DNA from: Treponema sp.
GTDB taxonomy: Bacteria; Spirochaetota; Spirochaetia; Treponematales; Treponemataceae
Length of the DNA stretch: 58,796 bases
Direction of reading: 5' to 3'
Assembly (NCBI GenBank): GCA_024687165.1
Contig: JAILEY010000081.1
Location: forward strand, 1-58,796
Below are positions 4,889 through 47,104 of the stretch, piece after piece (the stretch's first letter is position 1; every line of letters starts with the position of its first letter). Below the pieces are notes generated by a model that had not been told where the DNA came from, did not search any database, and saw nothing but the letters and a program-made list of their open reading frames with translations. Both the position numbers and the translations under genes were made by a program.

Positions 4889-5631
4889 TCGTCAGAAGTT
4901 CCTGAGCTGATGGTAGTTTTACCGTAGATTTTCAGGATTTCATCTGTGTAGGAATTATTTTCATTATACACAAAGAGCGGCTTGAGGATTCTCAGGTCGC
5001 TCTTTGCATTTTTGACGGCTTCAATTAAAATCATTGTCGGTGCTTTGTTTTCAGATGGATGAATCATCTGAAGTCTTTTTGGTTCAAGGTTGTATTTTTC
5101 GCAGCATTTGAAAATTTCTGAAAGTCTGTTTGGTCTGTGAATCATAAAAAATTTTCCCTGCGATTTTAATAGGCCTGCCGCAGCTTTTACAACATCATCA
5201 AGTGTGCATAAGATTTCATGTCGCGCAATTGATTTTGCATCGTTTGAATTAATTACTGCACTTTCAGTTTTCATGTACGGTGGATTGCTTGTAACGTAGT
5301 CAAAAGAATTTTTTTCAAGAACAGAAAATACATTTTTTATATCTTCATTGAATATTGTAATCTGATTTTTAAGTTTGTTGATTTCAACGCTTTTTACTGC
5401 CATATCTGCAATTTCTTTCTGGATTTCAACGCCGTAAAATTTTACTGCCGGATTTTTTGCAGCCATTAAAATCGGGATGATTGCGTTTCCTGTTCCAAGG
5501 TCAGCGCATTTTGTGTTTTTGTGGCATTCAGCAAAATCAGAAAGAAGAACTGCATCTATTCCCCAGCAGAATTTTTCTTTATCCTGAAAGATTTTGAAAT
5601 TCTTTATATGCAGATTTCCCAGTTTTTCCAT
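4885..5631 (-). CDS. tRNA1(Val) A37 N6-methyltransferase-like protein
   Basis: A Rossmann-fold SAM-dependent methyltransferase of the TrmN6/YfiC type. Features in order are the start-proximal F.WGIDAVLLSDFA region, the SAM-binding motif ADLGTGNAI, an acidic residue in YGVEIQ, and the adenine-N6 catalytic motif NPPY. The 248-residue length fits. It probably modifies an adenine in tRNA, but substrate specificity cannot be read from sequence. Upstream on its strand a TATATT box ends 7 bases before the ATG, suggesting a leaderless mRNA, although the -35 is weak. The 3' end overlaps the lipoprotein gene by 4 bases. Confidence 0.8.
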   Translation of the reverse strand: MEKLGNLHIKNFKIFQDKEKFCWGIDAVLLSDFAECHKNTKCADLGTGNAIIPILMAAKNPAVKFYGVEIQKEIADMAVKSVEINKLKNQITIFNEDIKNVFSVLEKNSFDYVTSNPPYMKTESAVINSNDAKSIARHEILCTLDDVVKAAAGLLKSQGKFFMIHRPNRLSEIFKCCEKYNLEPKRLQMIHPSENKAPTMILIEAVKNAKSDLRILKPLFVYNENNSYTDEILKIYGKTTISSGTSDD

Positions 5632-5665
5632 GAACTAAAATATATAAAAATTTTAAAAAAAAATC

Positions 5666-5832: not shown

Positions 5833-5861
5833 TTGAAAAATTTTACATTAAATTGTATACT
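5833..5861 (+). promoter_or_regulatory. Promoter giving a leaderless topoisomerase subunit B mRNA
   Basis: TTGAAA (5833-5838), a 17-base spacer, TATACT (5856-5861), then only TATTTT before the ATG at 5868. The expected transcription start is the A of the ATG, and there is no Shine-Dalgarno sequence. The alternative TTG start at 5853 lies inside the promoter and is rejected. Confidence 0.75.
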
Positions 5862-5867
5862 TATTTT

Positions 5868-8099
5868 ATGGGTGGAAAGACAGAAAAAAAAGTAACTGCT
5901 GCAAAAACTACGGCGGTTAAAAAAAGTGCGCCTGCAGCAAAAAAAACTGCACCGGCTAAAGTATCTGCTGCAAAATCAACAGTTTCAAAAACAGCATCTT
6001 CGAAAACAGTATCTTCAAAATCTGCAGCTGTAAAAGCAACTGCGGTAAAATCAGTAAAAGCAAAAGCTGCTGTAAAATCTGCTGCGTCTGAAGAAAAATT
6101 CAGTGCTTGGTCAAATGCAAAGACTGTAAAGAAAACAAAGAAAGAACTTGAGGCTGAAAAAAAAGCTGCATTAAAGGCCGCTTCATCTGCTGTAGAATCA
6201 GAGAAAAAACTTGCTGCTGCTAAACAGATTGATCCTGCATCTCAGCGTGCAAAAAAAGAAGTTCAGGATTATGGTGATGATAAAATCAAACATCTTGATG
6301 CACTTGAGCATATCCGCCTTCGCTCCGGAATGTATATCGGTCGTCTTGGAAACGGTTCCAATGAAAATGACGGTATTTATGTTCTTATAAAAGAAATAAT
6401 TGATAACTCTATAGATGAATTTATTGTCGGCTTTGGAAAGCAGATTGATGTATCTGTTCAGGATGGCCGCGTAAAAGTTCGTGACTATGGCCGCGGAATT
6501 CCTCTTGGAAAAGTTGTTGATTGTGTAAGTCAGATTAACACTGGTGCAAAATATAATGATGATGTATTCCAGTTTTCTGTTGGTATGAATGGTGTCGGTA
6601 CAAAAGCTGTAAATGCACTTTCTTCATATTTCCGTGTAGTTTCAGTTCGTGACGGTCAGTGTACAGACGCTGTTTTTGAAAAAGGAAAGCTTGTAAGTCA
6701 AAGAACAGGTGCTCTTAAAAATCCGCAGAAAAACGGAACTTATTTTGAGTTTGTTCCAGATGAAGAAATTTTCGGCAAGTACACTTTCAATATGGAATTT
6801 GTTGAAGCCAGAATGTGGAACTATGCATTCCTTAATCCGGGACTTACGCTTAGACTTAACGGACAGGAATTCAAATCAGACAATGGACTTCTTGATCTTC
6901 TTAACAAAGAGCTTGGATCTTCAAAGGATAAGGAAAATCTTGAGCCACCTTTGTATGATATCGGTTCGTATTCTGGTGAACATTTAAAATTTGCATTCAG
7001 CCATGTAAGCGGTGTAAATGAAATTTATTTTTCTTTCGTAAACGGACAGTACACTTCTGACGGCGGTTCGCATCTCAACGCATTCAAAGAAGGTTTTATA
7101 AAAGGTATCCGCGAATTCTACGGAGAAAATTTTGACATCGATGACATCCGCTTTGGTCTAAGAGCTGCAGTTCTTGTAAAAATCAAGGATCCGGTTTTTG
7201 AAAGTCAGACAAAAAATAAACTTGGAAATACTGATATCAAGCAGTGGATTGTTGCTGAAACTCAGTCGGGGCTTGATGCATGGCTTCACAAAAATCCAAC
7301 TGCCGCAGAAAAAATAAAGGATAAAATTAAGGCAAATGAAAAGTACCGCACGGATTTGAGCAAAGTCAAAAAGGAAGCAAAGGAACTTGACCGAAAAACA
7401 AGTATCCGCATTGATAAACTTAAGGACTGCCATTTCCATCTTCAGGATGGTGCAAAGGGTGAAAACTCAATGATCTTTATCACGGAAGGTCAGTCTGCAT
7501 CCGGTACAATGACACACAGCCGCAATGCAGATTATCAGGCAATTTTTAGTCTTCGCGGTAAACCTGAAAATATGTACGGAAAGAGACAGAGTGAAATCTA
7601 CAAGAATGCAGAACTTTACATGCTGATGAAAGCACTTGGAATTGAACAGACTGTAGAAGATCTCCGCTATTCAAAAATCGTAATTGCAACTGATGCCGAT
7701 AATGACGGTTTCCATATTCGCAATCTTCTGCTTACATTCTTCCTCGGTTACTTTGAAGAACTTGTGATGCAGCATCGTATTTATATTCTTGAAACACCTC
7801 TTTTCCGCTGCAGAAATAAAAAAGAAAAAATTTACTGTTACAGTGAAGAAGAGCGTGATGAGGCTCAGAAGAAGCTTGGTGCATCCTGTGAAACAACCCG
7901 ATTCAAAGGTCTTGGAGAAATTTCCGGTGCAGAGTTTAAGGATTTTATTCAGCCTGAAACAATCCGTCTTACACCTGTAGAAATCAGTCAGCTAAAATTG
8001 ATTCCAAAACTGCTTGAGTTCTATATGGGAAAAAATACACCTGAGCGCAGGGCATTTATTGAAAAGAATCTTCTGACAAATGATCAGATTGATGCATAA
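5868..8099 (+). CDS. parE: Type II topoisomerase (topo IV-like) subunit B with H1-like N-terminal tail
   Basis: ATPase subunit of a type IIA topoisomerase that relaxes or decatenates DNA together with the next gene's product. The GHKL ATPase has the DNSIDEF motif (about 179-185) and DYGRGIP (about 206-212). A transducer domain follows, then a Toprim domain with EGQSASG and DADNDGFH. Distinctive is an added N-terminal region of about 135 residues dominated by Lys, Ala, Ser, Thr and Val in AAK, AVK and SKT-type runs, like histone H1 or HctB tails. At 743 residues it is about 100 longer than usual. Start chosen at ATG 5868 because its promoter ends 6 bases upstream. The name parE rather than gyrB is inferred from the short subunit A partner. 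Confidence 0.88.
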   Translation: MGGKTEKKVTAAKTTAVKKSAPAAKKTAPAKVSAAKSTVSKTASSKTVSSKSAAVKATAVKSVKAKAAVKSAASEEKFSAWSNAKTVKKTKKELEAEKKAALKAASSAVESEKKLAAAKQIDPASQRAKKEVQDYGDDKIKHLDALEHIRLRSGMYIGRLGNGSNENDGIYVLIKEIIDNSIDEFIVGFGKQIDVSVQDGRVKVRDYGRGIPLGKVVDCVSQINTGAKYNDDVFQFSVGMNGVGTKAVNALSSYFRVVSVRDGQCTDAVFEKGKLVSQRTGALKNPQKNGTYFEFVPDEEIFGKYTFNMEFVEARMWNYAFLNPGLTLRLNGQEFKSDNGLLDLLNKELGSSKDKENLEPPLYDIGSYSGEHLKFAFSHVSGVNEIYFSFVNGQYTSDGGSHLNAFKEGFIKGIREFYGENFDIDDIRFGLRAAVLVKIKDPVFESQTKNKLGNTDIKQWIVAETQSGLDAWLHKNPTAAEKIKDKIKANEKYRTDLSKVKKEAKELDRKTSIRIDKLKDCHFHLQDGAKGENSMIFITEGQSASGTMTHSRNADYQAIFSLRGKPENMYGKRQSEIYKNAELYMLMKALGIEQTVEDLRYSKIVIATDADNDGFHIRNLLLTFFLGYFEELVMQHRIYILETPLFRCRNKKEKIYCYSEEERDEAQKKLGASCETTRFKGLGEISGAEFKDFIQPETIRLTPVEISQLKLIPKLLEFYMGKNTPERRAFIEKNLLTNDQIDA

Positions 8100-11761: not shown

Positions 11762-12178
11762 TTATGATTGGTTAGAATCAGTTTCAGGCTTTAATCCTTC
11801 TACGAGATATTTTCCCGGGAGCTTTGAAGGACGTCCTGTTTTTGTAACACTTGCCCAGGTAACATCAGCTTCTGCACAGACAGTACCATCTTTTTTGCGG
11901 ATTATCTGATGCATCTGGCCTGTAATATGTTTAAGCTGAGTAGGGTATGTTTCAATTTCAAGTTCGTCATTTAAAAGGGCTGAAGCTTTGTAATAGATAT
12001 CAACATGGGTAACATAAAGATAAAATCCTTCTGCAACAATTCCGTTGTAATCGAAGCCGCTTTTATTAAGAAAATCCATTCGTGCCATTTCAAGATAGTT
12101 GAGGTAAACTGCATTATTTACATGGCTGTAGGAATCGCATTCATATGGTCGGACTTTTAATTCTGTAATTGTTTTCAT
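11762..12178 (-). CDS. Hotdog-fold acyl-CoA thioesterase (YbgC/4HBT-like)
   Basis: A 138-residue single-domain hotdog protein with the family's N-terminal V-R-x-Y-E-C-D-S-Y-S-H-V-N-N-A-V-Y segment, where Asp is the usual catalytic position, and a central strand region YKASALLNDELEIETYP. It probably hydrolyses an acyl-CoA or acyl-ACP thioester. The start was placed at the ATG at 12178 rather than an upstream ATG: TATAAT ends 6 bases before it, with TTGAAC 18 bases further up, which would give a leaderless transcript. The -35 overlaps that of the divergent GGDEF gene. Confidence 0.82.
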   Translation of the reverse strand: MKTITELKVRPYECDSYSHVNNAVYLNYLEMARMDFLNKSGFDYNGIVAEGFYLYVTHVDIYYKASALLNDELEIETYPTQLKHITGQMHQIIRKKDGTVCAEADVTWASVTKTGRPSKLPGKYLVEGLKPETDSNQS

Positions 12179-12184
12179 GTTTGA

Positions 12185-12238
12185 ATTATAGCTTAAACTA
12201 GAAAAAATGTTCAATCTGTATTAAAATATACTTATAAA
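12185..12238. promoter_or_regulatory. Divergent promoters with overlapping -35 boxes
   Basis: Minus strand: TTGAAC (12209-12214), 18 bases, TATAAT (12185-12190) for the thioesterase gene. Plus strand: TTCAAT (12210-12215), 17 bases, TATAAA (12233-12238) for the diguanylate cyclase. The two -35 hexamers share GTTCAA, so polymerase cannot bind both at once. Confidence 0.6.
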
Positions 12239-13828: not shown

Positions 13829-13857
13829 TTGTAATTTTTTTTCATTCTTACTATAAT
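13829..13857 (+). promoter_or_regulatory. Promoter for a leaderless xpt mRNA
   Basis: TTGTAA (13829-13834), a 17-base spacer, TATAAT (13852-13857), then 7 bases to the ATG at 13865. No Shine-Dalgarno sequence. Confidence 0.7.
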
Positions 13858-13864
13858 CTGTAAT

Positions 13865-14461
13865 ATGTCTCAGAAATTAAACTTTTTGGAGAAGAAAATT
13901 CTCAAAGACGGAATTGTCAAGGAAGGAAATGTTCTTCGCGTTGACAGTTTCTTGAATCATCAACTTGACGTCGGTTTACTTGAAGAAATCGGTAAAGAAT
14001 TCTACAAAAGATTTAAATCAGAAAACATTACAAAGATACTTACTGTTGAATCTTCTGGAATTGCAATTGCATGTTTTGTTGCGCAGAAATTCAGAGTTCC
14101 GGTTGTCTTTGCAAAAAAATCAAAATCTCTGAACATAAGCGACGATGTTTATTCTGCAGAAGTTGAATCGTTTACTCACAAGACAAAAAATACTGTTGTA
14201 GTTACAAAGCAGTACATTACTCAGGATGACTGCATTTTGATTATTGATGATTTTCTTGCAAATGGAGCTGCTCTTCAGGGACTTATTTCAATTTTGAATC
14301 AGGCGGGTGCAAAAGTTTCTGGAATCGGAATTGCAATTGAAAAAGGATTTCAGCCTGGCGGACAATTCATCAGAAACCTCGGTTATCATCTTGAATCACT
14401 TGCAATTGTTGATTCAATGGAAGTTGAACCTAAGAAAATTAATTTCAGAACAAATAAATAG
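13865..14461 (+). CDS. xpt: Xanthine phosphoribosyltransferase
   Basis: Converts xanthine (and possibly guanine) plus PRPP to XMP in the cytoplasm. At 198 residues it is close to the B. subtilis Xpt length. It begins with a typical L-E-x-K-I-L-K-D-G segment and carries VESSGIAIACFVA. The PRPP-binding motif is CILIIDDFLANGAALQGL (about residues 121-138), and a VVFAKKSK lysine pair precedes it. It is followed 42 bases later by an NCS2 permease, and a guanine deaminase lies just beyond, so the three fit a guanine/xanthine salvage route. I see no purine riboswitch, because the transcript appears leaderless. Confidence 0.92.
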   Translation: MSQKLNFLEKKILKDGIVKEGNVLRVDSFLNHQLDVGLLEEIGKEFYKRFKSENITKILTVESSGIAIACFVAQKFRVPVVFAKKSKSLNISDDVYSAEVESFTHKTKNTVVVTKQYITQDDCILIIDDFLANGAALQGLISILNQAGAKVSGIGIAIEKGFQPGGQFIRNLGYHLESLAIVDSMEVEPKKINFRTNK

Positions 14462-16483: not shown

Positions 16484-16512
16484 ATGAAAATTTAATTTTT
16501 TCGTGGTAAACT
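16484..16512 (+). promoter_or_regulatory. Promoter for a leaderless patatin mRNA
   Basis: ATGAAA (16484-16489, a weak -35), a 17-base spacer, TAAACT (16507-16512), six T residues, then the ATG at 16519. No Shine-Dalgarno sequence. Confidence 0.45.
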
Positions 16513-16518
16513 TTTTTT

Positions 16519-17604
16519 ATGACTGCTCAGATTAAGAAAAGATTTTTACCTGTTTATTTTTTATTTTGTTTTGTTTTTTTAATTTCATGTACAAAACAGA
16601 GAACTGAAGATTCCGCAGAAAAAGTCGGCGTTGTTTTTTCCGGTGGTGGTGCAAAAGGTGCTTATGAAATCGGTGTGTGGAAAGCTTTTGAGGAATATGG
16701 AATAACAAAAGATATACAGGTTATCAGTGGTACTTCTGTTGGTGCGTTGAATGCGGCTCTCTGTGTGTGCACTGATTGTGAAACTCAGGAAGAAATCTGG
16801 AGAAATAAGGTCGGTTATTTTTCTTTTATGAGGCCTGATAAAAAAACTCTTTATTCTGTCGGTGAATCTTTGCTGAGTACGGCGATTGAATCAAGCGGGG
16901 AAGATGGTGTTGATTTTGAAGAATTTGGAAAGAATCTTCTTGGAAAAATTGGGAAAGGCCTTCTGGATTATTCATTGAATGATTCTCATGCGGAGGGGCT
17001 TTTTGACAGAAATCCTTTGCGAAAAATAATTGAAAAAAATGTCACACTTAAAAAATTGAATGAAAGTGGAATTGATGTTTATGCAACGGCTTTGGAAAAA
17101 CAATCGATTTTAATTCAGTATTTAAGCGGTGAAAATTCTTTTTTATACAGCTTTCTTTTGAATGAGCAGATTAATGAAAAAAATGTATGTGATATTCTTT
17201 TGGCAAGTTCTGCTCTTCCAGGAATTTATCAGTCACAGACTCTTGATAAATCTGTTATTGAAGAAGGAATTTCTCTTGGTGAGAGTAAGGAATTTGTTGA
17301 CGGCGGATTTTCTCAAGCTGGTGGTGAAAATACTCCGCTTGCACCTTTGTTGAAATATAAGAATCTGGAAAAAATTTTTATTGTTTATTTGCGTCACGAT
17401 CCTGCGCTTAGAAATTTTAATGATGGGGAATCTTCTGCTCAGATCATTCATATTGTTCCTTCTTATGATCTTGGAGATATGGTTAATGGAACTGTGAATT
17501 TTTCATCTGAAAAAATTTATTCTCTGATTGAACTTGGATACAGCGACGCCTGTAAAGTTCTTGAAGAATACGGTTATGCAAAAAAAATCCCCGCCAGAAG
17601 TTAA
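16519..17604 (+). CDS. Patatin-like phospholipase lipoprotein
   Basis: The 361-residue protein has a signal peptide ending in LISC (C24), so it should be a lipoprotein. A patatin domain follows with the oxyanion motif SGGGAKG (41-47), the nucleophile S73 in GTSVG, and the dyad aspartate in FVDGGFSQ. It probably cleaves acyl chains of phospholipids at the cell envelope. It is divergent from guanine deaminase and convergent with pckG, with no clear functional partner. Confidence 0.88.
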   Translation: MTAQIKKRFLPVYFLFCFVFLISCTKQRTEDSAEKVGVVFSGGGAKGAYEIGVWKAFEEYGITKDIQVISGTSVGALNAALCVCTDCETQEEIWRNKVGYFSFMRPDKKTLYSVGESLLSTAIESSGEDGVDFEEFGKNLLGKIGKGLLDYSLNDSHAEGLFDRNPLRKIIEKNVTLKKLNESGIDVYATALEKQSILIQYLSGENSFLYSFLLNEQINEKNVCDILLASSALPGIYQSQTLDKSVIEEGISLGESKEFVDGGFSQAGGENTPLAPLLKYKNLEKIFIVYLRHDPALRNFNDGESSAQIIHIVPSYDLGDMVNGTVNFSSEKIYSLIELGYSDACKVLEEYGYAKKIPARS

Positions 17605-19587: not shown

Positions 19588-19640
19588 AATATAATGTTTT
19601 TTACCGTTATATTCAACTAAGATGAAATTTTTGCTATATT
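19588..19640. promoter_or_regulatory. Divergent pckG / NUDIX promoters sharing a -35
   Basis: Minus strand: TTGAAT (19611-19616), 17 bases, TATATT (19588-19593) for pckG. Plus strand: TTCAAC (19612-19617), 17 bases, TATATT (19635-19640), then 6 bases to the NUDIX ATG at 19647 (leaderless). The two -35 hexamers overlap by five bases, the same arrangement as at 12209-12215. Confidence 0.65.
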
Positions 19641-19646
19641 ATTCAT

Positions 19647-20174
19647 ATGAAAGACAATGTATTCAACTTTTGTCCTGATTGTGGTTCAAAAAACATTCAA
19701 ACGCTTCTAAATGGAAGAAAATGGTTTTGTCCAGACTGCGGTTTTGATTTGTATAACAATGTTGCATCTGCAGTCGGTGTTGTAATAGAAAATTCCAAGG
19801 GTGAAATTCTTTTTGAAAAACGTGCAAAGAATCCGAGAAAAGGATTTCTGGCTCTTCCCGGTGGATTTTGTGAGCCTGATGAAACTGCAGAACAGTCAGC
19901 TGTAAGAGAATGCCGTGAAGAAGTTGGACTTGAAGTTTGTGATATAAAATTTCTGTGCAGTTTTCCGAATACGTATGTTTACCGCGATATCATCTATAAA
20001 ACATGCGATATATTTTTTACGGCTAAAATAAAAGAGGGTGCTCAAATCAAAATGGATGAGAGTGAAGTTTCTGAATATGTCTGGGTTTCTGCTGATACGA
20101 TGGAAGAAATTGAAAAAATTCCGCTTGCTTTTGACAGTGCGAAAAAAACTTTATTAAAGAGAATTGAAAAATGA
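19647..20174 (+). CDS. NUDIX hydrolase with N-terminal zinc ribbon
   Basis: The 175-residue protein has an N-terminal zinc ribbon (two CPDCG knuckles, about residues 9-32) followed by a NUDIX domain. The Nudix box begins GGFCEPDETAEQ and continues into RECREEVGLEV, matching G-x5-E-x7-R-E-x2-E-E-x-G. The ribbon plus Nudix layout recalls NADH pyrophosphatase (NudC) relatives, but this protein is short and lacks the full NudC N-terminal domain, so the substrate is uncertain. Leaderless start (see promoter). The stop overlaps the next start by 4 bases (ATGA), implying coupled translation. Confidence 0.85.
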   Translation: MKDNVFNFCPDCGSKNIQTLLNGRKWFCPDCGFDLYNNVASAVGVVIENSKGEILFEKRAKNPRKGFLALPGGFCEPDETAEQSAVRECREEVGLEVCDIKFLCSFPNTYVYRDIIYKTCDIFFTAKIKEGAQIKMDESEVSEYVWVSADTMEEIEKIPLAFDSAKKTLLKRIEK

Positions 20175-23580: not shown

Positions 23581-23586
23581 TACACT
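23558..23586 (+). promoter_or_regulatory. Promoter inside the preceding gene, leaderless GH3 mRNA
   Basis: TTGTAT (23558-23563), a 17-base spacer, TACACT (23581-23586), then TTCCCT before the ATG at 23593. The -35 and spacer lie in the last codons of the metallopeptidase gene. Confidence 0.5.
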
Positions 23587-23592
23587 TTCCCT

Positions 23593-25278
23593 ATGAAAAA
23601 CAAGTGGTTCCTGACAGCAGTAATTTTATTTTTTATTCCATTTATTTCTTTTGCGCGAATTGATGGTGATATTGATTTCTGGAGTAATTATCCTGATGAA
23701 GAACTTGCTGATGAACTTGTTGAGCGAATGAGCGATGAGGAGCTTCTTTCGCAGATTCTTATGTTCGGCTGGGCAGGACAGGAGCCGAGTGTTCTTTTGA
23801 ATTCCTGGGTCACAGAACGCGGATTGGGAAGTGTAAAAGTTTTTGGATGGAATACTGACAATATTCAGAATGTTGCAAAATCAGTTCGTATTCTTCAAAA
23901 GGAAGCCGCAAGCAGACCTCTAAAAATTCCTCTCTTTGTTGCAACAGATCAGGAAGGCGGATGGATTCGTCACGTAAAAGGCGAAACCTCTGATACTCCT
24001 GGAAACATGGCAATCGGTGCCGGTGGTTATCCTGCAGACGCATATTATTCGGGCTTTTACATCAACAGGGAAATTCGTGCGCTCGGTATAAACATGAATT
24101 TTGCTCCTACTGTTGACCTTTACACAAATCTTGATTCAACAGTTATTGGTCCGCGTTCGTTTGGTGCAGATCCAGATAATGCAGGAATTCTTGGAGAAGC
24201 ATTTTCAAAAGGTTGTGAAGATGCAGGTGTTATTCCTACTGCAAAACATTTTCCCGGGCATGGAGACACAAGTCTGGACAGTCACGGTAAACTTCCTCAG
24301 ATTGAAATTGATGAAGAAACTCTTTTAAACAGAGAACTCATTCCATTTAAATATTTGATTCAGGCAAAAATTCCTGCTGTGATGAGCGGACATCTTTCTT
24401 TTCCGCTTATTGAAACTGACGGAACTCCTGCAAGCTTAAGTAAAAAATTCCTTACTGAAATTCTTCGTGAAAAACTTGGCTATGAAGGATTGATTATTAC
24501 GGATGATATGATGATGAACGGGGCTTCTCTTTTTGCAGGTTCATTTTCACGCGCAGTAACAATGGCGATTGAAGCCGGAAATGATATCGTTATTTCTTCA
24601 ACAACAGCAAATCTGAATGAAAGCATGTGGACAAAAAATCTCTCCAGAATGATTACACATAAGGAATTTAAAGCTCGTGTAAAGGAAAGTGCCAGAAGAG
24701 TAATTCTTGCAAAACTGAAATATTTTAAAAGCGAAAATCACGCTCCTTTGTATCCAGATGAAAATACGATTTTTGAGCATATCCCTGATAAGGACGGTGC
24801 AAAATTTTTCCTTGAGCAGGCATGCCGTTCAATCAGCGTTTACAAAAAGGGAGAACTCTTCCCGTATACAAAAGAAAATGCAGGACGTGTTTTAGTTGCA
24901 GGTCCGTTTTTATCATTGTACAGTGAGGCAAGAAAAAGATTTCCGAATTGCTCAACGTTTCATTTTAGTTATGATTTAAAAAATGATAACAGCAATTATG
25001 ACGAATGGAATGCAGCGGGACTGACTTCTGTTGCAGATGATTACGATACGATAATTATCTGCGTGTATGACAAGCATACTGCAAAAATTGCACAGCGCCT
25101 TAAGTATATGGGAAAAACTGTTGTGATTCTTTCAATAATGTCGCCTGTGCATGTGATGAAGGATTTTGAATGGGCTGATACAATTATCTGCGGATACAGC
25201 TATTCTGATTATTCTTTTGCAGCTTTGTTCGGTGCATTGCATGGTGAATTTACTCCAAAGGGAAAAATACCTCTTTGA
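23593..25278 (+). CDS. Glycoside hydrolase family 3 enzyme, beta-N-acetylhexosaminidase-like
   Basis: The 561-residue protein has an N-terminal signal peptide (about 1-21), then a GH3 TIM barrel. It carries DQEGGWIRH, the NagZ-type catalytic loop KHFPGHGDT (218-226) with a following D-S-H, and the nucleophile D304 in IITDDMM. A C-terminal alpha/beta domain follows, from about 415. NagZ enzymes remove beta-N-acetylglucosamine, for example from peptidoglycan fragments. The signal peptide places this one outside the cytoplasm, so it may act on wall turnover or host/plant glycans. It starts 12 bases after the metallopeptidase gene but appears to have its own promoter. Confidence 0.87.
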   Translation: MKNKWFLTAVILFFIPFISFARIDGDIDFWSNYPDEELADELVERMSDEELLSQILMFGWAGQEPSVLLNSWVTERGLGSVKVFGWNTDNIQNVAKSVRILQKEAASRPLKIPLFVATDQEGGWIRHVKGETSDTPGNMAIGAGGYPADAYYSGFYINREIRALGINMNFAPTVDLYTNLDSTVIGPRSFGADPDNAGILGEAFSKGCEDAGVIPTAKHFPGHGDTSLDSHGKLPQIEIDEETLLNRELIPFKYLIQAKIPAVMSGHLSFPLIETDGTPASLSKKFLTEILREKLGYEGLIITDDMMMNGASLFAGSFSRAVTMAIEAGNDIVISSTTANLNESMWTKNLSRMITHKEFKARVKESARRVILAKLKYFKSENHAPLYPDENTIFEHIPDKDGAKFFLEQACRSISVYKKGELFPYTKENAGRVLVAGPFLSLYSEARKRFPNCSTFHFSYDLKNDNSNYDEWNAAGLTSVADDYDTIIICVYDKHTAKIAQRLKYMGKTVVILSIMSPVHVMKDFEWADTIICGYSYSDYSFAALFGALHGEFTPKGKIPL

Positions 25279-26315: not shown

Positions 26316-26969
26316 TCAAAAAAGATTTTTAAGTTCTCCAAGATTTTTTAAGACACAGTCAGAAACTTTTTCTGTTTCTTCATTCGGCTGGATTCTGTCT
26401 GGAACCATGATTGTGTACATTCCGGCTGCTTTCGCACTCTTTAATCCGTTGAGACTGTCTTCAATCGCTGCACATTCTTCCGCTTTTAAATTTAAGCTTT
26501 TACAGGCCATTAAATAAATTTCTGGATCCGGTTTACTGTGTGTTACCATGTCACCGCATGTGAGTGTTTCAAAATAGTTTATAAGTCCTGCAGAAGAAAG
26601 CTGCTGTTTTACGATAATTTCTCTTGTTGAAGAAGCAAGTGCAATTCTATAATTTTTGACCTTAAGATATTCAAGACATTCTTTTGCAAAAGGAAGAATT
26701 TTTATTCCTTCAGTTTCTGCAATTTTATGAAAGAGCTGTGAAGTCCGAGTAAGAAAATTTTCAACAGGAAATCCATTGCCGCAGTTTTTAAGAATTATCT
26801 GCTTTGTGTCATACTTGTTTGTTCCACGGCACATGCTTATGATTTCTGCAGCACGTTCTTTTGAAAGATTAAATTCTTCGCCTGCCTCTGCCCAAGTCCT
26901 GTCACAAATACTTTCTGTGTCCAGCAAAACGCCGTCCATATCAAAAATTAAAGCTTTAATTTCCTTCAT
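26316..26969 (-). CDS. HAD-family phosphatase / beta-phosphoglucomutase-like
   Basis: The 217-residue protein is a HAD hydrolase subfamily IA member. Motif I is FDMDGVLLDTE (nucleophile and acid Asp), motif II is ALASSTR, the lysine region is SKPDPEIY, and motif IV is IEDSLNGLKSAKAAGM. It probably dephosphorylates or isomerises a sugar phosphate; the exact substrate cannot be assigned. It is convergent with the FMN enzyme, with 2 bases between stops. Its promoter gives a leaderless transcript. Confidence 0.87.
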   Translation of the reverse strand: MKEIKALIFDMDGVLLDTESICDRTWAEAGEEFNLSKERAAEIISMCRGTNKYDTKQIILKNCGNGFPVENFLTRTSQLFHKIAETEGIKILPFAKECLEYLKVKNYRIALASSTREIIVKQQLSSAGLINYFETLTCGDMVTHSKPDPEIYLMACKSLNLKAEECAAIEDSLNGLKSAKAAGMYTIMVPDRIQPNEETEKVSDCVLKNLGELKNLF

Positions 26970-26976
26970 GAATTGA

Positions 26977-27005
26977 AGTATATCGTTTTTTCCTTTTAAT
27001 GTTAA
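26977..27005 (-). promoter_or_regulatory. Promoter for a leaderless HAD phosphatase mRNA
   Basis: On the minus strand: TTAACA (27000-27005), a 17-base spacer, TATACT (26977-26982), then 7 bases to the ATG at 26969. No Shine-Dalgarno sequence. Confidence 0.65.
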
Positions 27006-27072: not shown

Positions 27073-27101
27073 TTGAAAATTAACCATAAAATTAATATAC
27101 T
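27073..27101 (+). promoter_or_regulatory. Promoter for a near-leaderless mnmG mRNA
   Basis: TTGAAA (27073-27078), a 17-base spacer, TATACT (27096-27101), then 9 bases to the ATG at 27111. The expected start leaves at most a few leader bases. Confidence 0.7.
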
Positions 27102-27110
27102 CATTTCACT

Positions 27111-29153
27111 ATGGCGTTTTATGATTATTTTGATGTAGTTGTTTGTGGTGGCGGTCATGCCGGAATTGAAGCTTGTCTTTCTTCAGCACGAATGGGATTA
27201 AAAACCCTGCTTGTAACTCAGACTATTGATTCAATTGGACGAATGAGCTGCAATCCTTCAATCGGTGGAATTGCAAAAGGAAACATCGTTCGTGAAATTG
27301 ATGCACTCGGCGGAGAAATGGGAAAACTCATTGACCTCAGCATGATTCAGTTCCGTCTGTTAAACAGAAGCCGTGGTCCTGCAGTACAGGCTCCAAGAAG
27401 TCAGGCTGATAAAATCACATATGCATCACTTGCAAGAAAAATAATTGAAACAACGCCAAATCTTTCAACGCTCATGGATACTGTAGTTGATGTGCTTACT
27501 GTTGCATCTGATGAAGACCTTCCTCCGTCAAGTGAAACTACAGCAGAGAAGGGAACTATCCCAGGTGAAAAACGCGGAACAGAAAATGCTTATTTAACTG
27601 AAGCTGCCGTAAGCGGAAAAAGACAAAAGATAATCGGAATTGTGACTGAACGAGGTCGTGTGATTCCTTGCCGCAGTGTCGTTCTTACAACAGGAACTTT
27701 TTTGGGCGGAAGAATTTTTATCGGTGAATATGATGCATCTTGTGGAAGAATTGGAGAAGCAGGTGCCTTTGGTCTTACAGAAAGTTTGAGCCGTCTTGGA
27801 TTTACTACGGGCCGACTTAAGACAGGAACTCCTCCACGCATATTAAGACATACAGTTGATTTTTCAAAGTTTGAACTTCAACTTGGAGATGACGATGTAA
27901 TTCCATTCAGCTTTGATACAGAAAAAGTTGAACGACCTATGGTTCCGTGTCATCTGGTTTATACAAATGAAGAAACTCATAAAATCATCCGCGACAATAT
28001 TGGAAGGAGTCCGCTTTATTCTGGAAAAATAAATGGAATAGGTCCCCGCTATTGTCCTTCAATTGAAGATAAGGTTATGAGATTTCAGGAACGTGAGCGT
28101 CATCAGCTTTTTGTAGAACCTGAAGGACTTGAAACTGATGAAATATATCTCAATGGTTTAAGTTCATCGCTGCCGGAAGAAGTTCAGGATGCATTTTTGC
28201 GTACGATGAGCGGATTTGAAAATTGTGTTGTAAGTCGTCCCGGCTATGCGGTTGAATATGATTATGTTGAACCGACTCAGCTTTTTCCGTCTCTTGAAAC
28301 AAAACGTGTTGCAGGACTTTTTAATGCAGGACAGATAAATGGAACTTCAGGATATGAAGAAGCAGCAGGTCAGGGGCTTGTTGCGGGAATTAACGCTGGT
28401 CTTTATGCCCGTGAGCATATCAAACTCCTTGGTGACTTGTGTAAACCTGACAGTTCAATTCCGTCTTCTCCTGCAAGTACAGAAAAAAATCATTTTTGTC
28501 CAAAGCCACAGTTTTCTGCAGAAGATTTAAAACTCTTTGCTGAATTATCAGCTGCAACAACAAAAGCTCTTGAAGCAAAATTGAATCAGTCAAAGAGTAT
28601 TCCAAAATATCAGCCTCTTATTCTTGGCCGTGATGAAGCATACATCGGTGTTCTTATTGATGATCTTGTTACGCTTGGAACAAAAGAGCCGTACAGAATG
28701 TTCACTGCTCGTGCAGAATATCGTCTTAAGCTTCGTCATGATACAGCAGACAGAAGATTAAGAGAGAAGGGATTTAATGTTGGTTTGATTTCAAAAGTTC
28801 AGCTTGATGCATTGAATGAAAAATATGCAAAGGTTGAAGAAGCAATGACAATCCTTGAAAAAAAGCCGGATGCAGAAAAGCCAGAAGAATTTTCTGTTAC
28901 AGAATGGACTCTTGCTCAGGAAGATTTTAAATATAAGTATTACATCCAGAAGCAGGACAGTAGAGTTGCAAAAATGCACAAAATGGAAAATGCAAGAATT
29001 CCTGCAGATTTTGATTATTCAAAAGTTGTTGCTCTCAGTTCAGAAAGCCGTGGAAAACTTGAAGCTGTCAGACCTCTTACTCTTGGACAGGCATCCCGTA
29101 TCAGCGGAATTCGAAACAGCGACATTATGCTTCTGATGGTTTATTTGAAATAG
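27111..29153 (+). CDS. mnmG: tRNA uridine 5-carboxymethylaminomethyl modification enzyme MnmG
   Basis: An FAD-dependent subunit that acts with MnmE to modify U34 of certain tRNAs. The FAD-binding motif VCGGGHAGIE is at 11-20. SIGRMSCNPSIGGIAKG, TGRLKTGTPPR, and the C-terminal GYEEAAGQGLVAGINAG and R-D-E-A-Y-I-G-V-L-I-D-D-L motifs are all present. At 680 residues it is about 50 longer than usual. The extra length lies in two Ser/Pro/Glu-rich loops (about 140-170 and 440-465). The 3' end overlaps the convergent MATE gene by 29 bases. Confidence 0.96.
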   Translation: MAFYDYFDVVVCGGGHAGIEACLSSARMGLKTLLVTQTIDSIGRMSCNPSIGGIAKGNIVREIDALGGEMGKLIDLSMIQFRLLNRSRGPAVQAPRSQADKITYASLARKIIETTPNLSTLMDTVVDVLTVASDEDLPPSSETTAEKGTIPGEKRGTENAYLTEAAVSGKRQKIIGIVTERGRVIPCRSVVLTTGTFLGGRIFIGEYDASCGRIGEAGAFGLTESLSRLGFTTGRLKTGTPPRILRHTVDFSKFELQLGDDDVIPFSFDTEKVERPMVPCHLVYTNEETHKIIRDNIGRSPLYSGKINGIGPRYCPSIEDKVMRFQERERHQLFVEPEGLETDEIYLNGLSSSLPEEVQDAFLRTMSGFENCVVSRPGYAVEYDYVEPTQLFPSLETKRVAGLFNAGQINGTSGYEEAAGQGLVAGINAGLYAREHIKLLGDLCKPDSSIPSSPASTEKNHFCPKPQFSAEDLKLFAELSAATTKALEAKLNQSKSIPKYQPLILGRDEAYIGVLIDDLVTLGTKEPYRMFTARAEYRLKLRHDTADRRLREKGFNVGLISKVQLDALNEKYAKVEEAMTILEKKPDAEKPEEFSVTEWTLAQEDFKYKYYIQKQDSRVAKMHKMENARIPADFDYSKVVALSSESRGKLEAVRPLTLGQASRISGIRNSDIMLLMVYLK

Positions 29154-30516
29154 ATTTCGTTTGGACAGGTGACGGTTGTTTTACATTGAGATATTTTTTT
29201 GAAATGATGATCCATGCAACTGCCATTAAGATTGCTGATATTGTCCACGAAACAGGATAGACAATTAAAAGGTTTTCGTAAGTGTGAACCATTTTAAATG
29301 CAGTATTTATCCAGGTGATTCTTATTACGCAGGTGCCGAAGAGAACGATTGCTGTTGGAACTGTTGACCATCCGATTCCTCTGAGTGCTGAACTTAAAAC
29401 TTCGTAGGTTGCAACAAGAGCTCCGAGCATTTCTACAGTAAAGACTCTTCTTTTTGCATAATCAAGTGCGATTTCATTTTTTGTGTAGATTTTGCACAGA
29501 AGGTCACGAGCCCAGACCCAGGTTTGAGAAAGAACAAGCGCACCGATAAAAGCACACAGCAGACATTCTTTCATAATTCTTTTACATCTGTCGAACTGTT
29601 TTGCTCCGTAATTCTGGCTGATGAAACTTGTGCAGGACTGGTTGAAGCCACAGATGATGAAGTATGAGTACATTTCAAAATTTAGTGCAGCACTTGAGCC
29701 GGCAACTGCATCTGAACCAAAAGAGTTTAATCCGCGCAGAATGCACATGTTTGAAATTGAAAATACAAGCCCCTGTAATCCCGCAGGAAGTCCGATCTGT
29801 ACGATTCTCTTTAGATGTTTAAAATCGATGTGAAGTTTCATGAGATTCAATTTAAAATCATCTTTTTCTTTGAGAAGTAAATATAATGTCAGAAGTCCGC
29901 TTATTGCATTTGAAATTAGAGTTGCAATTCCAACGCCCCGGACTCCCATGTTGAACACAATTACAAACAGAAGATTTAAAAGTACATTGATAATTCCGCT
30001 TGCAATCAGAATATACATCGGACGCTGAGTGTCACCTTTGCTTCTTAAAATTGCAGAAGAAAAATTGTAAATCATTATGAACGGCATCCCAAGAAAATAA
30101 AGCCTCAGGTAAATTGTTGCATAATCAATAACATCAGACGGGGTATTAACCAGAAGGAGAATTTTTTTTGTGATGAGCATTCCTAAAGCAAGTAGAAAAA
30201 TCCCGCTGATTGCTGCTACAGTCATTGCTGTATGAATTGCTTTTGGAATTTCATGTTTTTTATTTTGTCCGATCAATGTGCTGATTACAACATTTGCTCC
30301 AAGTGAAAGACCGACGAAAATATTAATCAAAGTGTTAATTACTGGTGCATTACTTCCGACTGCTGCAAGTGCTCTGTTTCCGCAGTAATGACCTACAACT
30401 GCAACATCCGCAGAATTAAAAAGCTGCTGCAGAATACTCATTGCGATTATCGGGAGAGCAAACACAATTATTTTTTTTAACGTTGGTCCGTTGAGCATAT
30501 CAACATTTTTTGACAT
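29125..30516 (-). CDS. MATE-family efflux transporter
   Basis: An inner-membrane cation-coupled exporter. The 463-residue protein has 12 predicted helices in two homologous halves, with the typical N-terminus GPTLKKIIVFALPII, SADVAVVGHYCG in the first half and GLNSFGSDAVAGSSAA in the second. Drug or metabolite specificity cannot be told. A TATAAT box ends 6 bases before the ATG, so the transcript may be leaderless, though the -35 is weak. The 3' end overlaps mnmG by 29 bases. Confidence 0.9.
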   Translation of the reverse strand: MSKNVDMLNGPTLKKIIVFALPIIAMSILQQLFNSADVAVVGHYCGNRALAAVGSNAPVINTLINIFVGLSLGANVVISTLIGQNKKHEIPKAIHTAMTVAAISGIFLLALGMLITKKILLLVNTPSDVIDYATIYLRLYFLGMPFIMIYNFSSAILRSKGDTQRPMYILIASGIINVLLNLLFVIVFNMGVRGVGIATLISNAISGLLTLYLLLKEKDDFKLNLMKLHIDFKHLKRIVQIGLPAGLQGLVFSISNMCILRGLNSFGSDAVAGSSAALNFEMYSYFIICGFNQSCTSFISQNYGAKQFDRCKRIMKECLLCAFIGALVLSQTWVWARDLLCKIYTKNEIALDYAKRRVFTVEMLGALVATYEVLSSALRGIGWSTVPTAIVLFGTCVIRITWINTAFKMVHTYENLLIVYPVSWTISAILMAVAWIIISKKYLNVKQPSPVQTKSISNKPSEA

Positions 30517-30601
30517 GAGAGAATTATAGAATTATACATGGAAAAGTGCTACACTTGCTTAAGAAATTAAACCTTGATTTTTTGTGGAGATTTATTTTTT
30601 T

Positions 30602-32089: not shown

Positions 32090-32879
32090 TTTTTATTTGA
32101 GAAGGTTTGCCTGTTAAAATAATTCGTAAACCGAGTTTTGCGTATGCGCATATTTCTCTTGCGTATACGTTTAAAACAAAAATTGCAGGAACATGTGCGG
32201 AAAGTCCGAAAGTTTTTTTGAAACCAAGTCTTTCCGCAAGAATCTCTGCTCTCCTCAGGTGAAAGTTGCTTGTCACAATCGTTAAAGGCATTTCAAGAAC
32301 TTCAGTTAAATTACAGCCTTTGTCTTTCGCAATAAGTTCGGCACTGTATTTAAAATTTTGAATTGTGTCCAATGCTTTATCTTCTATTAAGATTCTTTCT
32401 TTTTTAATTCCAAGTTTTTCAAGTTCTCGTGCAAGTTCCGGAGCTTCACTGTGATTTGTAAACGGCAAAGTTCCGCCTGTAACAACCGCTTTTGTTTCCG
32501 GATGAAATTTTAAATATTCAGCTGCAGTAATCAGTCTTTCCCGTGGCATCTGTGTAATAGTTCCATCCTGCTTAATCCCGCCGCCAAGAATCAGAATATA
32601 TTCAGTGTCGATTGTGCCGTCATTTATTTTTGGATTTAAAATCATCGGAAGAGTGACTGAACATAAAATCGCTGTACCGCAAAGAAAAATTACTGCAAAA
32701 ATTTTCTGCCACTTTTTAAATGGAGATTTCTTTTTTAATTTTAAAGCAGCATAAAAAAATAAAACTGCAACAATAAACCAATATGAGGAAAAACTTATAA
32801 TCGCAGGATTGATAATTTGAAGGATCAGAAAGTAAATAAAAAAAATTAATGAAAGAAAAAATAAAACAAAGTGTTTCAT
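32043..32879 (-). CDS. YdcF/ElyC-family (DUF218) membrane protein
   Basis: The 278-residue protein has two N-terminal TM helices (about 5-23 and 28-47) and a third (about 58-80), followed by a DUF218 domain. Domain motifs are ILILGGGIKQDG, VVTGG, ILIEDKALDTIQN and VTSNFHLRRA. ElyC relatives affect envelope synthesis and undecaprenyl-phosphate handling, and SanA relatives affect the envelope barrier. A similar role is likely but unproven. The promoter (ATGACA at 32911-32916, TATAAT at 32888-32893) ends 8 bases before the ATG. Confidence 0.85.
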   Translation of the reverse strand: MKHFVLFFLSLIFFIYFLILQIINPAIISFSSYWFIVAVLFFYAALKLKKKSPFKKWQKIFAVIFLCGTAILCSVTLPMILNPKINDGTIDTEYILILGGGIKQDGTITQMPRERLITAAEYLKFHPETKAVVTGGTLPFTNHSEAPELARELEKLGIKKERILIEDKALDTIQNFKYSAELIAKDKGCNLTEVLEMPLTIVTSNFHLRRAEILAERLGFKKTFGLSAHVPAIFVLNVYAREICAYAKLGLRIILTGKPSQIKTMQADQNLQEDLQQF

Positions 32880-32887
32880 ACGAACTG

Positions 32888-32916
32888 ATTATAAAAGGGA
32901 ATTCATAAAATGTCAT
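32888..32916 (-). promoter_or_regulatory. Promoter for a leaderless YdcF mRNA
   Basis: On the minus strand: ATGACA (one mismatch to consensus), a 17-base spacer, a perfect TATAAT, then 8 bases to the ATG at 32879. Confidence 0.65.
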
Positions 32917-44960: not shown

Positions 44961-44982
44961 ATTTTGTGATATAGTTCTTATC

Positions 44983-45600
44983 ATGGAAAATAAAACTTTA
45001 GAAAATAGAAATCAGAATTTTTTAATCTTTTCATATCCCATTGTGATTCAGATTCTGCTTGGACTTCTCTGTGGCTGTTTGAATATTGGTGCAAATTATC
45101 TTCAGCACTTTAATCCTGTTCCGCTTTACATTGATACAATTTTTACAATTACAGCTTCATTTTTTGGAGCGGTAAGCGGTGTTATAAGTGCACTTGTTTA
45201 TCATATTTCTACAACAATCATTTATGCAAAGGTGCCGCTGTGGTCGCTTGTGTGGGCAATCTGCAGTCTTACAATCGTTCTTATAATCAGAATATATATT
45301 CACACCCGCAGAAAGATTGAAATTACAGATTTAGTTCTTCTTGTGTTTGTGATTTCGCTTGTAGTCAGCCTTGAAGGTTCGGCTATTTTTACTGTTTTGA
45401 ACGTTGCAACAGGTTACAGGGAAGATTCGCAGGTAAAATTTATGTACGCACTTTTAAGCAGCAATAGTATTTCGATTTTTGTGTCGGCCCTTTTGCCTCG
45501 CGTTCCTGTAAATATTTTAGATAAAGCAATCAGTACCTGCATCGGCTGGTTAAGCTTTAAAGGAATTAGCAGATTGCTTTCACTGGTAAAAAAAGCTTGA
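44983..45600 (+). CDS. ECF-transporter S-component-like membrane protein
   Basis: The 205-residue protein has about five or six hydrophobic segments. Its fold-like signature PLYIDTIFTITASFFGAVSGVISAL resembles vitamin-uptake S components and related sensor membrane domains. A lone S component would need a shared energising module, and none is in the window. Alternatively it is a stand-alone sensor domain: the N-terminus of the HD-GYP protein at 35308 has a similar hydrophobic pattern. A TATAGT box ends 7 bases before the ATG. The 3' end overlaps the convergent histidine kinase gene by 35 bases. Confidence 0.6.
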   Translation: MENKTLENRNQNFLIFSYPIVIQILLGLLCGCLNIGANYLQHFNPVPLYIDTIFTITASFFGAVSGVISALVYHISTTIIYAKVPLWSLVWAICSLTIVLIIRIYIHTRRKIEITDLVLLVFVISLVVSLEGSAIFTVLNVATGYREDSQVKFMYALLSSNSISIFVSALLPRVPVNILDKAISTCIGWLSFKGISRLLSLVKKA

Positions 45601-46444: not shown

Positions 46445-47068
46445 TCACCTTAGTTTTTCAAGCAAGCCCGCACGGTCGCGACAGCCGATTTTGTCGTAAA
46501 TTATGCTGATGTAATTTTCCAGTGTTGTATGTTTGATTTGAAGTTTTGATGCAATGTCGTCGTTTGTGCGTCCGTCTTGAATCAGTTTAACAACCTGCAT
46601 TTCTCTTTTTGTGAGAATTGAAAGAAGGGAATTTATTTCCATAAGGGATGCAACAAGATCCGGCTGAACAAAAGTTTTTCCGTCTGCAACAGTATTGATT
46701 GCATCAAGCAGCATCTTTTCATCACTCAATTTTGAAACAAAACCTTTAGCTCCAACTTCACTGCTCATTGCGCGTTCAATATAGGCACCTGAATCGTGGC
46801 TTGAAAAAATTACGCTTGGAATATTTGCTTTTAAAAGTAATTTTACCGCTTCAAATCCCTTGTATGTGTAATCGGGATTTCCCTTAATCTGAATGTCTAC
46901 AACTGCGACGATTTTGTCTTTTTCAGAATTGCTCTTTTTTATGATTTCAGGAATTTCATCAAGGCTTTCCGCTTCTGCAAGGATTTCCCAGTCAGTGTTT
47001 TCTGATATGTAAGACGAGATACCTTTTCTAAGCATTTTATGATCATCAATTAAAATTAACTTTTTCAT
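46445..47068 (-). CDS. NarL/FixJ-family response regulator
   Basis: The 207-residue protein has a receiver domain (acidic pair DD at 8-9, phospho-acceptor D58, Lys in GFVSKL) and a C-terminal LuxR-type HTH (LTKREMQVVKLI...TTLENYISIIYDKIG). It is the first gene of an operon with the histidine kinase. The ATG at 47068 was chosen over one 18 bases upstream, because TATACT (47076-47081) ends 7 bases before it and TTGCTC sits 17 bases further up, again a leaderless arrangement. Target genes are unknown; the divergent lipoprotein gene is a candidate. Confidence 0.9.
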   Translation of the reverse strand: MKKLILIDDHKMLRKGISSYISENTDWEILAEAESLDEIPEIIKKSNSEKDKIVAVVDIQIKGNPDYTYKGFEAVKLLLKANIPSVIFSSHDSGAYIERAMSSEVGAKGFVSKLSDEKMLLDAINTVADGKTFVQPDLVASLMEINSLLSILTKREMQVVKLIQDGRTNDDIASKLQIKHTTLENYISIIYDKIGCRDRAGLLEKLR

Positions 47069-47075
47069 TTTGTTC

Positions 47076-47104
47076 AGTATAACCATACGTTGCTAAAGGA
47101 GCAA
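47076..47104 (-). promoter_or_regulatory. Promoter of the response-regulator operon (leaderless)
   Basis: On the minus strand: TTGCTC (47099-47104), a 17-base spacer, TATACT (47076-47081), then 7 bases to the ATG. Confidence 0.55.

Follow-up and report, generated by a model that had tools for sequence, protein, structure and literature searches.

Promoter spacing points to common leaderless initiation at first genes of a gut-type Treponema

Introduction

How is a bacterial gene translated when its promoter lies immediately in front of its start codon? The question is raised by topB, the gene for a type IIA topoisomerase ATPase subunit, whose upstream region (5833..5870, plus strand) consists of a -35 element TTGAAA, 17 bp, a -10 box TATACT and 6 nt before the ATG at 5868, without a Shine-Dalgarno (SD) sequence. 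If the transcript starts at the AUG, the ribosome must initiate without its usual docking sequence. The gene lies in a 58,796-nt stretch of DNA, here called the window, from a Treponema metagenome-assembled genome (MAG) of 2.38 Mb in 87 contigs with about 37% GC; the nearest matches to the MnmG protein of this genome are Treponema MAGs, the named ones including T. berlinense and T. bryantii. Leaderless initiation has hardly been described before in this group. For flaA and flaB2 of T. denticola, mapping gave leaders of 14 and 124 nt, respectively (PMC9481697), and we found no genome-wide map of transcription start sites (TSSs) for any Treponema in the open literature. A first-pass annotation of the window had claimed that about a dozen genes share the topB arrangement and that first genes of transcripts are often leaderless in this organism, and we analyzed both claims across the genome, the genus and the phylum.

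Promoters at start codons in the window

The 12 starts listed in the first-pass annotation all have a TAnnnT box ending 6–9 nt before the ATG, as had been claimed; none has AGGA, GGAG or GAGG at -18 to -4, and an SD 5–10 nt upstream is absent from all 12. Most also have a -35 element at 17–18 bp, readable from the sequence as TTGAAA, TTGTAA or TTAACA-like. With the spacing given as the nucleotides between box and ATG, putative leaderless starts on the minus strand are those of a TrmN-like methyltransferase divergent to topB (5629..5644; TATATT, spacing 7, ATG 5631), a YbgC-type thioesterase (12176..12190; TATAAT, 6, ATG 12178), a HAD gene divergent to mnmG (26967..26982; TATACT, 7, ATG 26969), a MATE transporter (30514..30528; TATAAT, 6, ATG 30516) and a response regulator (47066..47081; TATACT, 7, ATG 47068), and on the plus strand those of xpt (13852..13867; TATAAT, 7, ATG 13865) and a NUDIX gene (19635..19649; TATATT, 6, ATG 19647). 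The weakest boxes among the 12 belong to a patatin-like gene (16507..16521, plus; TAAACT, 6, ATG 16519) and a GH3-family gene (23581..23595, plus; TACACT, 6, ATG 23593). Longer spacings occur at ydcF (32877..32893, minus; TATAAT, 8, ATG 32879) and at mnmG (27096..27113, plus; TATACT, 9, ATG 27111), and a further candidate, absent from the earlier list, lies at 44970..44985 (plus; TATAGT, 7, ATG 44983). The description of the listed genes as first genes stands for 10 of the 12, which are clearly first or separately placed; the exceptions are xpt, 43 bp behind the previous gene, and GH3, which is not clearly a first gene because its ATG lies only 12 nt behind the preceding stop (23580).

Promoter position also corrects the choice of start, as had been proposed. 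The longer topB reading frame would begin at TTG 5853, between the -35 and -10 elements, and an upstream ATG of the response regulator (47086) lies inside its promoter; neither would therefore be transcribed from these promoters. For the thioesterase, a longer frame starting at TTG 12214 was rejected in favour of ATG 12178. Back-to-back pairs of putative leaderless genes also occur elsewhere in the genome, separated by 46 bp (contigs C72 and C6), 65 bp (C53) and 66 bp (C2); in pairs as close as 46 bp, the two promoters must overlap, the -35 element of one with the -10 box of the other.

The same spacing is enriched genome-wide

A genome-wide scan of -10-to-ATG spacing was run on 1.18 Mb, half of the genome to which the window belongs, window included. 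Genes were called from their codon signal only, which kept upstream sequence out of the placement of starts, and a TATAAT-like box was defined by fixed T1, A2 and T6 with at least 5 of 6 matches. With starts placed in this way, boxes peak at spacings 6 (32 of 400 first genes) and 7 (18 of 400) against about 5 per position elsewhere, and operon-internal genes in the same sample show no spacing peak. In a relaxed test, any ATG within 4 nats of the best start was allowed, equally for test and control spacings. Here a box at spacings 6–9 was found in 128 of 467 first-like genes (27.4%) against 40.7 expected from control spacings (8.7%, binomial p ~5e-32), with 57, 40, 15 and 18 genes at spacings 6, 7, 8 and 9, about 10 per position elsewhere, and no peak at any other spacing; operon-internal genes showed no excess (3.6% against 4.3% at control spacings).

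From this excess, the leaderless share is estimated at 20.5% (15.5–25.6) of first-like genes and 28% (22–35) of divergently transcribed genes, and it is similar across motif definitions (16–22% and 27–31%, respectively). About one-fifth to one-third of the transcription units in this gut-type Treponema thus appear to begin at or within a few bases of the AUG. The claim that first genes are often leaderless is borne out by the excess at first-like genes, but at a frequency of about 20–30%, not as the state of most of them. Taken with the evidence below, we consider it very probable that many first genes of this organism have sigma70-type promoters that start the RNA at or near the AUG, have no SD, and have their 5'-terminal AUG recognised directly. 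Sequence statistics establish the promoter architecture and the exclusive use of ATG; the steps of translation that would follow are set out further below.

SD loss and the predicted transcription start

Among the 400 first genes, an SD is present in only 2 of the 70 that have a near box and in 132 of the 330 that do not (p 6e-13 in a related test), and it is kept in 31 of the 60 genes with a box at 14–29. The 3' end of 16S rRNA was not found in this MAG, so that the anti-SD can be read in its relatives only, where it is present. In the aligned leaderless promoters, exactly 17 bp separate the -35 element (TTGA) from the -10 box, and the bases before the ATG follow the register of that box: at spacings 6–7, the base at -1 is a pyrimidine in 83% of genes against 60% of SD genes; at spacing 6, it is a C in 55% against 7%; and at spacing 9, there is an A at -3 in 86%, giving A-Y-Y-ATG. 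Because of the -10 position and these initiator bases, the TSS is probably the A of the ATG at spacings 6–7, and 3 nt earlier at spacing 9. For topB, the predicted TSS is accordingly the A of ATG 5868, and the predicted 5' end reads ATGGGTGGA. The proposal of a strictly 5'-terminal AUG thus holds for boxes at 6–7, but not for those at 8–9 (ydcF, mnmG), which predict a leader of 1–3 nt; overall, a minority class would be near-leaderless, with leaders of 1–5 nt. The spacing-9 class comprises 21 genes in this genome, with a predicted 3-nt leader A-Y-Y that is often ACU or AUU; mnmG of the window belongs to it, with the predicted leader ACU.

These data bear on one alternative, namely that the promoters are real but secondary, and that the main transcript starts upstream with a leader bound independently of an SD, through S1 or A/U-rich sequence. 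Both an SD and a near -10 box are lacking in about half of the first genes (198 of 400), which fits such a mechanism and leaves room for SD-independent initiation on leadered mRNAs as well; yet the SD is almost wholly lost exactly where the -10 box is near, and the pyrimidine/A initiator follows the register of that box, as expected if an ATG-proximal TSS matters for translation. As an account of the near-box genes we therefore regard it as very unlikely, although at any individual gene an additional promoter further upstream may provide a leader.

Start placement and the mnmG comparison

A second alternative is that these genes are SD-led and truly start further downstream, which would put the -10 box at its usual distance. 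The coding signal in codons 2–13 is indeed modest, at 0.03 in the leaderless set against 0.14 in SD genes, and some leaderless calls are therefore probably wrong; a few are probably of this kind. Against it as a general explanation, in-frame SD-led starts downstream of leaderless ATGs are not in excess (2.8% against 4.8–5.1%, with 4.8% in SD genes), topB has no in-frame Met nearby, and the N-terminus of MnmG, conserved over 81 species, begins at the listed ATG. We consider this alternative very improbable, and keep to the reading that the RNA starts at or near the listed AUGs.

The conserved N-terminus also fixes the start for a comparison of 81 Treponema mnmG loci. In 49, classed as leaderless or near-leaderless, a box lies at spacing 5–11, an SD is lacking and the base at -1 is always a pyrimidine, while control windows of equal width contain a -10 box in 1–8 of the 81; the commonest single spacing is 9 (15 of 49). 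Another 21 loci have an SD, with the -10 box often some 20–40 nt upstream, and 11 have neither. Mapping the SD label on a tree of MnmG proteins gives 10 changes, at least 7 of them forced by supported branches, although this was a quick tree and some labels may err; the changes indicate that leaderless and SD-led modes interconvert.

Specificity and taxonomic breadth

The genome-wide result held when spacing, reading frame, start codon, operon position and organism were controlled for. In the own-genome scan, boxes near in-frame ATGs reach 3.0 per 100 per site, compared with 1.17 off-peak, and there is no excess before out-of-frame ATGs (0.57/0.66) or before in-frame GTG, TTG or CTG. A depletion of out-of-frame ATGs near the TSS was discounted, since CTG is equally depleted and the effect is probably compositional. 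Summed over 79 genomes of the same genus, TATAAT-N6-GTG occurs 1226 times against 5564 for TATAAT-N6-ATG, the N6 spacing alone being counted for GTG. Mycobacterial leaderless genes also use GTG, whereas the Treponema signal is confined to ATG. No excess was found in 200 kb of E. coli MG1655 (3.2% against 3.8%) or in a genome classed as Borrelia-like by its size and GC content (9.1% against 12.4%). Chance would mean that TATAAT-like words fall near many ATGs in the T/A-rich intergenic DNA of a 37% GC genome and are then picked out by a reader. The background for this is sizeable (8.7% of first genes per average 4-nt spacing interval), but chance has next to no probability left: it is refuted by the controls for spacing and frame, and is at odds with the sharp spacing peak, the specificity for frame, start codon and operon position, the anticorrelation with SDs, and a pair of spirochaete genomes richer in AT (28.6% and 27.3% GC) that show no excess (9.1% against 12.4%, and 12.4% against 21.7%).

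Within the genus, TATAAT-N6-ATG outnumbers TATAAT-N15-ATG in all 79 genomes (5564 against 2458 in total), with a median ratio of 2.46 and a ratio of 2.7 in the window's own genome. The N6/N12 ratio falls from about 2.1 in the genus to about 1.4 in a neighbouring genus of the family and about 1.0 in the Borrelia-like family. A gene-based profile of genome G149 is in agreement (14.8% against 6.6%); those of a same-genus sample (G081; 13.7% against 10.1%, 51 genes) and of the neighbouring genus (12.3% against 10.5%, 81 genes) are weak. Two genomes from other families of the phylum, G096 (f6) and G138 (f3), contain TATAAT-N6-ATG and TATAAT-N12-ATG in counts of 22 against 0 and 110 against 49, respectively, which suggests further leaderless-rich lineages elsewhere in the phylum.

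Proposed mechanism and relation to known leaderless genes

We propose that ordinary sigma70-type promoters are placed such that RNA polymerase would start at the A of the AUG (spacings 6–7), or 1–5 nt before it (spacings 8–11). The resulting mRNA would have no SD site, and its 5'-terminal AUG would be recognised directly, by analogy with the leaderless mRNAs of other bacteria either by a 70S ribosome or by a 30S subunit with initiator tRNA. Operon-internal genes and many of the remaining first genes would use SD-led initiation.

Leaderless translation itself is already known; what appears to be new, as far as genome sequences can tell, is an unusually strong, common and evolutionarily changeable case in Treponema. 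The signature, a position-specific -10 box without an SD, is identical to that of the TA-led genes of Zheng et al. (2011), in which TAnnnT precedes the start codon by about 12 bp (PMC3160421). For 6 of 18 spirochaete genomes, that in silico study reported TA-led shares of 1.8–6.9% of genes, and its text names no Treponema (PMC3160421); here, the share comes to about 20% among first-like genes, which extrapolates to around 13% across all genes. Leptospira interrogans is likewise a spirochaete, but a distant one with mapped TSSs, where dRNA-seq gave about 440 mRNAs with a 5' UTR shorter than 10 nt, half of them shorter than 2 nt (PMC5243855); the Treponema case comes from sequence analysis. In the leaderless transcriptomes of Mycobacterium and Deinococcus, as cited in PMC5243855 and PMC5397173, leaderless initiation is a routine mode beside SD-led initiation, as it would be here, in a low-GC genome with full TATAAT and -35 elements. 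For annotation, start-codon calling in Treponema should apply a promoter-at-ATG model to about one-fifth of first genes, and expression work in this genus cannot take SD-dependence for granted. Since one and the same gene alternates between leaderless and SD-led states over hundreds of species of this group, the switch between modes is directly testable.

The topB start and its GGTGG element

Of 30 topB orthologues from the genus (L180–L209), 16 share an invariant ATGGGTGG at the start (window 5868–5880). Its GGTGG corresponds to codons 2–3, GGT GGA or GGT GGT, even though just 32% of glycine codons are GGT. Five leadered orthologues (L192, L201, L202, L206 and L207) have an SD-like GGGTGGG a few nt upstream of the start, and in two others (L184 and L187) a short ORF in another frame begins with ATGGGTGGG immediately ahead of the main start. 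GGGTGG also precedes the start of five leadered genes in the window's genome, and genome-wide there was no clear sign of an SD-like element directly behind leaderless ATGs (8% against 1–5%). The simplest reading of the orthologues suggests that the topB start codon moved from behind its SD to in front of it, and conservation of GGTGG may perhaps reflect continued ribosome contact at a leaderless 5' end. A broader proposal, which we hold to be possible rather than probable, is that leaderless initiation, restricted to AUG, serves rumen and gut Treponema as a main route, that orthologues enter and leave this route repeatedly, and that at topB the start hopped over its SD (from GGGTGGG, a few nt and ATG to ATG GGT GGA), with SD-like codons 2–3 still conserved at the nucleotide level. 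The protein encoded from ATG 5868 begins with a Lys/Ala/Ser-rich extension (5868–6260) of about 120–130 residues ahead of the GyrB/ParE profile match, which resembles a histone H1-like tail.
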